Part shown: one piece after another, positions 8,322-20,890 of the stretch
Layout: every line of letters starts with the position of its first letter
Numbering within the stretch: the stretch's first letter is position 1
Virus record (IMG/VR): IMGVR_UViG_3300037258_000206
Location: 1 to 27,868 of that record
Length of the DNA stretch: 27,868 bases
Strand: one strand, 5' to 3'
Source: a virus
Program-made: the position numbers and the translations under genes
Notes under the pieces: generated by a model
Database searches by the model: none
Told to the model about the DNA's origin: nothing
Seen by the model: the letters and a program-made list of their open reading frames with translations, nothing else

Positions 8322-8489
8322 TTACGCCGGAGTGTCTGTCGCCTGACCTGGGCCGCCTTTCGGGGTTATCCGGTCCGGCATACGAGGTCCGAGCTTCACG
8401 GCTTCGGTTACCTGGCGGCGAGTGTCTGCGGGCGAGTGGGGCTTGCGCTTATCCACCGCGAGAAGCAGGTCGCCTCCGTTGACAGACAT
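8322..8489 (-). CDS. Hypothetical small protein upstream of the capsid gene (55 aa)
   Basis: ATG at 8489 with AAGG 9 bases upstream; TAA at 8324-8322. It starts MSVNGGDLLLAVDKRKPHSP and is Pro/Gly/Arg-rich at the end (RITPKGGPGQATDTPA), probably disordered. It lies on the late strand between the inserted plus-strand glycosyltransferase gene and the capsid gene, filling an otherwise empty gap. No family recognised. The SD and the continuous late-strand arrangement support it. Confidence 0.5.
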   Translation of the reverse strand: MSVNGGDLLLAVDKRKPHSPADTRRQVTEAVKLGPRMPDRITPKGGPGQATDTPA

Positions 8490-8517
8490 TGTGCGTTACC
8501 TTGCAGGCGGCTGTCAA
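8488..8517 (-). promoter_or_regulatory. Candidate late-strand promoter for the capsid gene
   Basis: A consensus TTGACA (plus-strand TGTCAA at 8512-8517) is followed after 18 bases by CACAAT (4 of 6 to TATAAT). Transcription would start near 8481, inside the 55-aa gene, and serve the major capsid gene. The same TTGACAG is present in inverted orientation at 8479-8485, giving a 7-bp inverted repeat 25 bases apart. Prediction only. Confidence 0.3.
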
Positions 8518-8529
8518 GCGTCGTACTAT
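8501..8529 (+). promoter_or_regulatory. Candidate leaderless promoter of the glycosyltransferase gene
   Basis: TTGCAG (8501-8506) and TACTAT (8524-8529) are exactly 17 bases apart. Only 6 bases separate the -10 from the ATG at 8536, so transcription would begin at or next to the start codon. No SD precedes that ATG. The same geometry recurs at the GTG starts at 24433 and (minus) 22900. The -35 match is weak. Confidence 0.45.
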
Positions 8530-8535
8530 CAACGC

Positions 8536-9585
8536 ATGAGAATCCTGGTTGGTACAGGCGACCCGCTCGGCACGCAAGGAACGCATTGGTGGCGACAAGT
8601 TATGCCGCTCACGCGCCTGGGCGGCGAGCATACCGTCCTCTTCACCGACGGCCAACCTCGGGAGTTCTTCCGTAGCGCCGACCTGGTTTTTCTCATTCGC
8701 GTGAGTATGCCAGCGACCATCGAACTTGTGCGGGCGCTCCGCGAAAGCGGGCCTCCCGTGGTTATGGACTTTGACGACAACCTCCACTCAATGCACGCCG
8801 ACAATGAGGCAACCCGCCTCTATAGCAACCACAAGTCGGGGACACGCATCTTCGAGGAGGCGTTGACTCTCGCCAACGTCGTGACGGCTTCTACCGAGCG
8901 GCTACGCACACAATATTATCCGTTCCGCAAGGATATTCAGGTCTGCCCCAACTTCATGCCGAGCGACATTTTCGACCGTCTTGCCCCAAAGCGCATCGAC
9001 GGTCTGCCAAAGCGCACCGGAGAGATTCGGGTCGGGTACGTCGGCGGCTCAAGCCACGGCGCGGACCTCGCGATGGCCTACACCCCGCTCCGCAAACTCT
9101 GCGCGCGGCACCCCAACGTCAAGCTCGTCTTTTTCGGGCAGCAACTACCCCCGCTCTACAAGCCCCTCCGGGACCGGATTGAATACCACGAATACGTCCT
9201 GCCGAAGGAGGGGGAACGGAACTACGAGTTCATGGACCGCTACTTTGAGCGGTTGCGGACCCTCGACCTTGACGTAGCGATAGCGCCCATCATCCCCTCG
9301 TCCTTCAACGCCGCGAAGTCCTACCTCAAGGCGCTGGAGTACGGTTCGTGCGGCTACCCGGTGGTTGCCAGCAGTTTCGGGCCTTATCGTGAGTACGCGA
9401 AAATGGGCGGCCCGATTGTGACCGCCTTTGATGAGGGCGAATGGCTCCGCAACTTATCGCGGCTAGTGGAGGATGCGGAGGCGCGGCGCGACCTTGCGGA
9501 GCGCAACGCCACCTTCATCCGCGAGCGATGCTCGACTAATCCTTGGCCGCGAGTGCTGGAGTCTTTGACGCTTTTACCGGCTTAA
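8536..9585 (+). CDS. GT-B glycosyltransferase (GT4-like)
   Basis: 349 residues from the ATG at 8536; a GTG far upstream would add an Arg-rich unnatural N-terminus. It opens with MRILVGTGDP, a Rossmann-type first strand. The second domain starts at IRVGYVGGSSHGAD (residues 164-177). The donor-site region near 250-280 reads APIIPSSFN, then KSYLKALEYG, then YPVVAS, matching the E-x7-E-type helix and strand of family GT4 glycosyltransferases. It probably transfers a sugar from a nucleotide donor to a phage or host surface molecule. It lies on the opposite strand to all its structural neighbours and overlaps the convergent gene by 50 bases. It has its own candidate promoter, so it behaves as a self-contained accessory gene. 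Confidence 0.8.
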   Translation: MRILVGTGDPLGTQGTHWWRQVMPLTRLGGEHTVLFTDGQPREFFRSADLVFLIRVSMPATIELVRALRESGPPVVMDFDDNLHSMHADNEATRLYSNHKSGTRIFEEALTLANVVTASTERLRTQYYPFRKDIQVCPNFMPSDIFDRLAPKRIDGLPKRTGEIRVGYVGGSSHGADLAMAYTPLRKLCARHPNVKLVFFGQQLPPLYKPLRDRIEYHEYVLPKEGERNYEFMDRYFERLRTLDLDVAIAPIIPSSFNAAKSYLKALEYGSCGYPVVASSFGPYREYAKMGGPIVTAFDEGEWLRNLSRLVEDAEARRDLAERNATFIRERCSTNPWPRVLESLTLLPA

Positions 9586-15139: not shown

Positions 15140-15191
15140 CGCAGTCGTCAGAATCCTCGCCGTTTTCGTTGAATGGGTCGTTGCTATTCAT
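15132..15191 (-). CDS. Possible acidic mini-gene (19 aa)
   Basis: ATG at 15191 lies inside the last codons of the GroES-like gene. The TAA at 15134-15132 lies 8 bases inside the next gene. The peptide is MNSNDPFNENGEDSDDCDG, very acidic. No good SD. The double overlap suggests a coupling bridge between two genes 44 bases apart, but chance is a fair alternative. Confidence 0.25.
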   Translation of the reverse strand: MNSNDPFNENGEDSDDCDG

Positions 15192-15717
15192 CGCCGCTGT
15201 ACGCCGCCGCTTCCAGGGTTTCGCCGTTGAACGCAGGCAGAGCGGGCTCACCCACGCGCATCTTGACGCCCGTGAATACTCCGATAACATGACTTTGCGT
15301 AATGATGCGGTACTCTTTGCCGCGCAGAAATATTTTGCTTCCCGCGTACTTCGCGCCCATTACCACCATGCCGCGGTCGAACGGCATCGGAACCGAAGAG
15401 GGCGCCATCCAGACACCTTCGCCCGTTTCGTCGTCCACCATCACCAATCGTGCGGCCTCGTTCGTGACCTTCTCGGTAGTCTTAATGAGAATGGCCTGGT
15501 CGGGCGAATCGAGTCGGTGCCCGCTGCCCTTGTTGATGATGAGGCCAGCGAACCAGCCCATTTCGGTTTCCTTCGCTGCGTCATCGCTGCGGACAATCTC
15601 GATTCCGCTCGCTCGCGTTTCGTCAACCCACAACACTTCCAGCAATAGCCGGTCGCCGTGAGGGATGAGCGTAAGCGGGTCCTGCTCCTCAAGAGATACG
15701 ATACGTTGTTCTTCCAC
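15184..15717 (-). CDS. GroES-like co-chaperonin
   Basis: 177 residues from the GTG at 15717 with a perfect AGGAGG SD. Residues 18-65 follow the GroES order: L-x-P-x-G-D-R-L-L-L-E, then DETRASGIEI (mobile-loop approach), then a D-D-A-A-K-E-T turn, then MGWFAGLIINKGSG. Residues 116-148 match the GroES C-terminal part: RGMVVMGAKYAGSKIFLRGK, then EYRIITQSHVIGVF, compared with the Y-G-G-x-x-V-x-x-x-G-K-E-Y-L-I-x-x-x-x-D-I-L-A-V pattern. About 50 residues are inserted between these halves and about 28 extra follow. Phage T4 gp31 is a known precedent: it caps host GroEL to fold the capsid protein. Its place in the head operon suggests a similar role. Confidence 0.75.
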   Translation of the reverse strand: MEEQRIVSLEEQDPLTLIPHGDRLLLEVLWVDETRASGIEIVRSDDAAKETEMGWFAGLIINKGSGHRLDSPDQAILIKTTEKVTNEAARLVMVDDETGEGVWMAPSSVPMPFDRGMVVMGAKYAGSKIFLRGKEYRIITQSHVIGVFTGVKMRVGEPALPAFNGETLEAAAYSGDE

Positions 15718-19890: not shown

Positions 19891-20215
19891 TATTGCCCTC
19901 CTGCGCGCGTTTGATTTCGCGCATTACTTCTCGCGTCACGTTGTCGGACAGCCGCCGGCGGCGGCTTTCGCTTGGGGGTTTCTGCCACGGAGCGACAGGT
20001 TCTTTGCCCACTGCGGACCAGCCCTTGAGCGTCAAGTTCAGCCGTTGCTTCTTATAGCGCCCGTCGATTGTAAGGCTGCCAGCATCGACGTTCGCCGCCG
20101 CGTACCAATCCACGGCGTAAAGGGTGGCGCGCATCCGCCCGGCCAGTTCTCTCTTGGTCGGCCACCAGCCCACCTCAATCAAAAACTTGGCGGTATGCCT
20201 TAGAATATGCATCAT
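19883..20215 (-). CDS. Hypothetical protein, possibly DNA-binding (110 aa)
   Basis: Tandem ATGs at 20215 and 20212, with AAGG just upstream. The frame stays open further up, but that part is antisense to the zinc-ribbon gene, so I placed the start here. It reads MMHILRHTAKFLIEVGWWPT, then KRELAGRMRATLYAVDWYAA, then VDAGSLTIDGRYKKQRLNLT, with an Arg-rich helical end. The N-terminal part could be a winged-helix-like fold. It diverges from the plus-strand zinc-ribbon gene across about 30 bases. Confidence 0.55.
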   Translation of the reverse strand: MMHILRHTAKFLIEVGWWPTKRELAGRMRATLYAVDWYAAANVDAGSLTIDGRYKKQRLNLTLKGWSAVGKEPVAPWQKPPSESRRRRLSDNVTREVMREIKRAQEGNNG

Positions 20216-20245
20216 GCCTTCGGAACGAGCGCGGTCCGGCCAAAG

Positions 20246-20665
20246 ATGAGGCGCAGTCGAGGAGCGGCCTTGCCAGCGACTCCCTTGATTCGCCGGTGTC
20301 CCGTTGACGGGACTCTCTTCGAAGCGAAAGGGCGTCGGACGTTTTGCCAGCCGTCGTGTAACGACAGGTTCCACAATGCTCGGCGCGTCGTCCGCAATGG
20401 TCGCCGCGTTCACAAGGAACCCTCTCCCACTCTCATCGACACCGCACGCGAGATTGAAGCCGTCGAGTGCGAACGCTGCGGCTCGCCGTTTGGGAGGGAC
20501 TGGCCGCTGCCGCGCTGTCTGAGTTGCGAGGTGCAGTACCGCTTGGAGATTGAATCAAAGCGCGACGCGGGTCGCCGCAGGACGCAAGCCAAACGCGAGG
20601 AGCGCCTCGTTATCCACCTCACCCGCATGGCGGCTCAGGCCGAGGCGCTCGTAGACGTAGAATAG
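20246..20665 (+). CDS. Two-module zinc-ribbon protein on the opposite strand (139 aa)
   Basis: The ATG at 20246 is preferred; an in-frame ATG at 20207 would overlap the divergent gene. Residues 18-47 follow the phage zinc-finger pattern C-x-x-D/C-G-x-x-F...C-x-x-x-C...A-R-R (C18, C34, C38). Residues 75-94 form a second ribbon C-E-R-C-G...C-L-S-C. The C-terminal half is a charged helix. It is the only plus-strand gene between the glycosyltransferase and 22.9 kb. It ends 3 bases from the minus-strand stop at 20671. Likely nucleic-acid or protein binding; target unknown. Confidence 0.65.
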   Translation: MRRSRGAALPATPLIRRCPVDGTLFEAKGRRTFCQPSCNDRFHNARRVVRNGRRVHKEPSPTLIDTAREIEAVECERCGSPFGRDWPLPRCLSCEVQYRLEIESKRDAGRRRTQAKREERLVIHLTRMAAQAEALVDVE

Positions 20666-20668
20666 CGG

Positions 20669-20869
20669 CTATACTCCCTGCGCCATCAGGCTAGAGGCGG
20701 TATAGCTCATCGAGGAACTGTTCCCGATAGAAGTCGAGTAGTTGATTCCATTTACGTTAGCAGTTTGGCTCGCATACGTTGGAGAGACCCCGCCAGGAGT
20801 ACCGTTTATGTTCAAGGGAAAGGGAGCCGTATTTTTCGCCCGACTGGACGTATCCCAGGAAGGCGCTAG
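20669..20869 (-). CDS. Frameshift extension (-1) of the 77-aa protein, 66 residues
   Basis: This frame has no ATG or GTG start and only an in-frame TTG without SD. It continues the upstream gene if ribosomes slip -1 at C CCT TTC (20869-20875). It then reads LAPSWDTSSRAKNTAPFPLN, then INGTPGGVSPTYASQ, then a Ser/Asn/Thr-rich end (STSIGNSSSMSYTASS) and stops at TAG 20671-20669. That stop is 3 bases from the convergent zinc-ribbon stop. The composition resembles exposed virion proteins. The fused product would be 143 residues. Alternatives are a TTG-started separate gene or a decayed reading frame. Confidence 0.55.
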   Translation of the reverse strand, partial: LAPSWDTSSRAKNTAPFPLNINGTPGGVSPTYASQTANVNGINYSTSIGNSSSMSYTASSLMAQGV

Positions 20870-20890
20870 AAAGGGCGGACGAGCACCTCT
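20837..20890 (-). promoter_or_regulatory. Programmed -1 frameshift signal
   Basis: In order on the minus strand: an internal SD-like AGAGG (20890-20886); exactly 10 bases; the heptamer C CCT TTC (20875-20869, X XXY YYZ in frame); the stop TAG (20868-20866); then a two-part stem CGCC/GGCG enclosing CTGG-GATACGT-CCAG (20865-20837). An internal SD 10 bases ahead of the slip site plus a downstream stem is the arrangement of bacterial dnaX. The 3-base spacer to the stem is short. Confidence 0.55.

Follow-up and report, generated by a model that had tools for sequence, protein, structure and literature searches.

A previously undescribed family of small proteins from tailed phages very probably carries a conserved programmed -1 frameshift, and, judging by comparison among relatives, the frameshifting itself is very likely real. 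The member from which this analysis started lies in an IMG/VR record of 27,868 bases (hereafter the window, meaning the whole stretch of DNA that was analyzed), where all elements of the gene are on the minus strand (Table 1). A preliminary description had proposed products of 77 and 143 residues from this one gene, pointing to a slippery heptamer, an adjacent stop codon, an AGAGG element 10 nt ahead, a two-part stem and a -1 frame open for 66 codons; each of these elements is present as claimed, and the two predicted products are supported by comparison, with the slip site, 3' structure and open -1 frame kept in relatives. The -1 frame closes 3 bases from the end of a convergent plus-strand ORF (20207-20665). 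This ORF encodes two Cys-rich zinc-ribbon-like stretches and is likely a real gene, the surrounding region being otherwise minus-strand.

Table 1. Elements of the frameshift gene in the window, with the predicted junction peptide of one prophage relative.
Feature	Position	Strand	Details
Frame-0 ORF, 77 aa	21099..20866	-	ATG 21099, TAG 20868-20866; protein end ..VLVRPF
3' end of the ORF		-	GTC CGC CCT TTC TAG
Slippery heptamer CCCTTTC	20875-20869	-	read C CCT TTC; TAG immediately next
Frame-0 stop TAG	20866..20868	-	adjoins the heptamer
SD-like AGAGG	20890-20886	-	spacing to heptamer exactly 10 nt
Predicted two-part stimulatory stem	20865-20837	-	-14.2 kcal/mol
-1 frame extension, 66 codons	20869-20672	-	stop 20671-20669 (TAG); full predicted frameshift product 143 aa
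C-terminal tag S-Y-T-A-S-S-L	20687..20707	-	encoded in -1 frame
Predicted junction peptide, window			..RPFLAPS..
Predicted junction peptide, Spirosoma sordidisoli TY50 prophage (L099)			spans ..VVIRPFLSAATF..

DNA-pattern and profile scans identified 65 distinct homologues after removal of duplicates. The DNA pattern described the C-terminal strand (Y-x-D-x-L-D-x-V-E-V-x-V-R-P-F) and required CCN TTY, leaving the choice of Pro codon and the stop free; it returned 25 viral contigs, nearly all of them homologues. An alignment-based scan, in which one of two patterns used the N-terminus only, returned 67 viral-contig loci (the contigs being partly those of the DNA pattern) and four loci from bacterial genome contigs, among them the chromosome of Spirosoma sordidisoli TY50, where the homologue lies in a prophage. 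A further, diverged prophage copy, which only the profile search recovered, lies in another genome from that bacterial family; it retains CGC CCT TTT TAG together with a GGGGGTTGGACCCCC stem, and its -1 frame has 110 open codons. Single-sequence scans of the viral and genome contigs gave no match, no relatives were found on plasmids, and the annotated phage collection contained a single relative, at 44% identity, in a 735-kb uncultured phage (two records); its ORF ends in ..VRPF at C CCT TTT TAA, and its -1 frame runs for 188 codons, into collagen-like repeats. The aligned homologues are 33-63% identical to the window protein and are carried by diverse phages of 28 kb to 735 kb as well as by prophages of cultured bacteria, with a single copy in each of the 16 records tested. 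The 77-aa protein is missing from the available DNA of terminase relatives at 45% identity (L004-L006). Searches of Pfam and PHROG gave no significant match for the window protein, and none for a set of 24 members; the family is absent from both as searched, NCBIfam lying outside the scope, and we found no description of it in the literature, most subscription journals and bioRxiv preprints being outside coverage.

Conservation of the slip site extends to its individual nucleotides. Among the 65 homologues the heptamers are CCCTTTT (27), CCCTTTC (20), TCCTTTT (5), CCCTTTG (5), ACCTTTT (2) and GCCTTTT (2), together with TCCTTTC, GTCTTTT, CCCTTTA and GCCCTTT once each; the strict form CCCTTTN occurs in 53 and N CCT TTN in 63, the rest having a relaxed first base. 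A stop codon follows the slip site directly in 61 homologues, 60 of which have CCTTTN. The slip-site Pro is encoded by CCT in 63/65, compared with 20% elsewhere in the domain (binomial, 1e-41), and the stop is TAG in 49, TAA in 10 and TGA in 6, against TAG in 88 of 454 other ORFs (Fisher, 6e-19). Similarly, C precedes CCT in 53/65, compared with 24% for Arg third bases elsewhere. Members in which Phe has become Leu retain TTTG or TTTA (CCCTTTG or CCCTTTA), indicating that the bases are held rather than Phe, and the slippery bases mostly persist where R, P or F has been lost (VSPF, VKPF, VCPF, RSF, RPL). Only 1 of the 454 other ORFs in the same loci has an NCCTTTY-stop ending. That sole case is a 197-aa ORF in L082, distinct from the family gene, which ends A CCT TTT TAA.

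Four of the 65 homologues depart from this arrangement: L026 and L047 have one codon between site and stop, L094 has no site, and L012 has lost the stop. In L012 (332-661, plus strand), TTC TTG replaces the stop and frame 0 extends for 42 Ser/Thr/Asn-rich residues, possibly representing a fusion without frameshifting. In Escherichia coli, the H_HH.U_UU.Y class, to which C_CC.U_UU.C and C_CC.U_UU.U belong, ranks with the most efficient -1 motifs for which slippage has been measured, and U_UU.Y comes second among the tetramers (PMC4066793); a variable first base combined with a fixed TTTY would be explained by this efficiency.

Stable RNA structure is confined to the 45 nt immediately 3' of the heptamer, where folding has a mean z of -1.70 relative to shuffles (n = 60, p = 2e-8) and the first paired base lies a median of 3 nt downstream of the site; z is about 0 in the three 45-nt windows that follow and in the one upstream. 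The window's own stem does not stand out (z = -1.41 in its 45-nt window, relative to dinucleotide shuffles). H-type pseudoknots can be drawn in some members, e.g., L057, and were not significant family-wide. The upstream SD-like element that had been pointed out is indeed present in the window; a core SD occurs in only 18/60 relatives, with weak enrichment (p = 0.03), so the element is probably auxiliary, and the conserved stimulator appears to be the 3' stem. Because the members are related, these p-values overstate independence.

The preliminary description had named conservation of the heptamer and of the overlapping frame in relatives as a check, and the overlapping frame is indeed retained: all 62 usable members have an open -1 frame of 44 codons or more (median 71), compared with 8/62 for the +1 frame and 5/62 for frame 0 under the same test. 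The extensions are fast-diverging, yet they have a common end, a tag of the form [YF]-x(1,2)-A-x(1,3)-[LIVM] within the last 26 residues of 49/62 (consensus forms Y-x(1,2)-A-x-x-[LIV] and [ST]-Y-x-A-x-x-[LIV]). The same tag occurs in a mean of 10.3 and a maximum of 19 shuffled tails (500 shuffles), in the first 26 residues of 7/62 extensions, and in 1/454 other ORFs, which thus revealed no other tagged protein. For one close pair, L041 and L048, the extensions are 67% identical with a pN/pS of 0.56 (lower-identity pairs, being forced alignments, were left out); the pair speaks for the explanation preferred here, but the value is only moderately low, and that counts against it. About 20% of the extensions have no tag, including those of an RPL subgroup (L069, L071, L073, and L074) and the collagen-like tail of L002, and the tail of the Spirosoma prophage, at 176 aa, is different. 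The RPL subgroup has its RPL end at CCCTTTG-TAG beside a Sak4-like AAA gene; its extensions lack the Y-x-A tag and differ from the others, with SYPNxxQGDITLK in two.

AlphaFold2, run with an alignment that did not contain the 735-kb phage row, predicts a confident alpha/beta fold for the 77-aa domain (beta-alpha-beta-alpha-alpha-beta; pLDDT 91, pTM 0.74), with a last strand (residues 70-76) that reaches the slip site at its end. Fold searches returned no significant match, the best being E = 0.15 (PurS) in the PDB and E = 0.075 among viral structures. In the extension, pLDDT is 88 in residues 51-60 (the tag region) and 56-66 in the linker, with a short helix at 58-62; because confidence is low except in the tag region, the model points to a short linear motif on a flexible tether. 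Pfam searches of 10 extensions detected no Ig-like domain and found collagen repeats in one (8e-9). The earlier suggestion that the extension is a display or anchoring domain thus survives in part: anchoring is retained in modified form, as a predicted disordered linker with a conserved short tag at its end, and a display domain is not borne out.

We searched for a conserved gene neighborhood and found none. The neighbors vary widely, and among the first 25 matching families listed they are mostly DNA-metabolism genes and sometimes packaging genes: Sak4-like proteins, clamp loader, RusA-like and RuvC-like resolvases, DNA polymerases, RecT/Bet, SbcCD and GroEL, with terminase and portal in a few small phages. 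In L097 (6528-10618) the frameshift gene sits exactly between the large terminase (TerL) and portal genes, and in L044 and the window it is upstream of TerL. The window portal matches the types of SU10 and P22, both of them short-tailed phages. Among the neighbor matches listed there are no tape-measure or tail genes, save one weak tail-fiber match. The view that the gene lies outside the tail-chaperone setting is therefore upheld, with no tape-measure family among these matches, whereas its description as a late or structural gene is not, the neighbors being those of DNA metabolism and, in places, packaging. Chaperonin genes were also noted: in L067 and L093 the frameshift gene directly follows a phage GroEL gene, and the window has a GroES-like gene (15184-15717, minus strand; Cpn10, E = 2e-6) amid head genes. 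The window also contains, amid minus-strand structural genes, a plus-strand 387-aa ORF (8422-9585) that is glycosyltransferase-like by eye.

Several other explanations for the extension have been weighed. It could be an independent gene that overlaps the first and is translated from a start of its own, at the in-frame TTG of the window (..CCC TTG AAC..) or similar, possibly by ribosomes that reinitiate past the TAG. Phages commonly show reinitiation close to a stop, an ATG, GTG or TTG falls within the first 15 codons of 28/62 extensions, and an SD-like motif precedes a candidate start in the first half of 11. The remaining 34 extensions have no start codon in their first 15 codons, however, start positions are not shared, and those of L017 and L019 have no ATG, GTG or TTG anywhere; the window extension has no early ATG and no SD-like sequence before its in-frame TTG. 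Moreover, all of the open frames extend back as far as the slip site, and a separate gene would not account for the near-invariant CCT, the 3' stem or the fixed TTTY, which makes this reading highly improbable. Transcriptional slippage and stop-codon readthrough are both known ways of bypassing a stop, and we regard them as slightly less probable still: the T run, at just 3-5 bases, is shorter than polymerase slippage typically needs, and readthrough misses the conserved tag because frame 0 closes again a median of only 13.5 codons past the stop.

That RPF is kept for protein reasons, with the heptamer a by-product and the -1 frame accidentally open, draws on the conservation of R, P and F (each at least 90% in the alignment) and on a C-terminal DNA pattern that itself demanded CCN TTY. 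Against this, synonymous choice is extreme, variants losing R, P or F mostly keep the slippery bases, the -1 and +1 frames differ as 62/62 to 8/62, and the tag is found in 49/62 where 10 are expected; in addition, one alignment-scan pattern was N-terminal only and the diverged prophage copy came from the profile search. Chance is accordingly exceedingly improbable. Alternatively, the frameshift may be real and its role known, the protein being an analogue of tail-assembly chaperones (lambda gpG/gpGT type) whose extension recruits a tail protein. The logic is shared, that of a small tailed-phage protein with a low-level -1 extension (PMC5009743), but the neighbors listed are DNA-metabolism, chaperonin, terminase and portal genes with no tape measure, the window portal is of SU10 or P22 type, and the alpha/beta fold and the sequence have no significant match in the PDB and PHROG, respectively; we consider such a role very unlikely.

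Programmed frameshifting at a stop-adjacent site would operate as follows. Most ribosomes would stop at the frame-0 stop and release the 70-77 residue alpha/beta domain, while the 3' stem would pause a fraction of them on C CCT TTY, where a one-base backward slip would move the Phe tRNA from TTY to TTT and the Pro tRNA from CCT to CCC. The slipped ribosomes would append 44-190 residues, usually a variable disordered linker and the conserved tag, and the tag may then dock the domain, at limited stoichiometry, to a partner, so that untagged and tagged subunits would stand in a fixed ratio. Slippage in the host and its efficiency are what we infer from the sequences, and the idea that the tag acts as a docking peptide, tethered to only some copies of the protein, has about an even chance of being correct.

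The slip site is kept across proteins that share only some 35-60% identity, across phages from 28 kb to 735 kb and across unrelated gene neighborhoods; retention of one slip site at such divergence implies that the relative amounts of the short and long products matter. The 65 natural variants constitute a comparative set for testing frameshifting at stop-adjacent CCCTTTY, and the conserved peptide could serve as bait for the partner and thereby for the function. To our knowledge, the conserved frameshifts described from tailed phages are for the most part those of tail chaperones and of some extensions to capsid or tail proteins. It is as plausible as its opposite that this widespread, unnamed tailed-phage family, with a frameshift fixing the ratio of bare to docking-tagged domain and with ties to genome replication or packaging instead of tail assembly, gives tailed phages a third conserved frameshift system, next to those of the tail chaperones and of the capsid/tail (Ig-like) extensions.

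Tail-chaperone, capsid/tail and Ig-like frameshifts have been described in phages (PMC5009743, PMC10885494), and the family resembles each in part. Like lambda G/GT, it pairs a small phage protein with a -1 slip near its end and a predicted minority, C-terminally extended form, and its site is conserved despite divergence of the protein sequence; unlike lambda G/GT, it is not beside a tape-measure gene, is unrelated in sequence, has no PHROG or Pfam match, has a stop adjoining the slip site (61/65) and carries an extension predicted to be a disordered linker with a tag. The Ig-like extensions of T3 and A2 and T7 10B likewise involve two products of one gene with a shared N-terminus, but here the host protein is a 70-aa domain and not a major capsid or tail protein, the extension has no Ig-like domain, and one slip site is used family-wide across unrelated phages. 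In bacterial dnaX (tau/gamma) a -1 frameshift similarly sets the ratio of two forms, and many family members adjoin phage clamp-loader or recombination genes; the dnaX frameshift shortens its product, however, whereas that of the family would lengthen it, and there is no sequence relationship and no ATPase match, of clamp-loader or other type, for the 77-aa domain. Finally, the heptamer with a 3' hairpin or pseudoknot, sometimes accompanied by an upstream SD-like element, is shared with transposases of the IS3/IS911 type, from which the family is set apart by the lack of a transposase and by a different product architecture.
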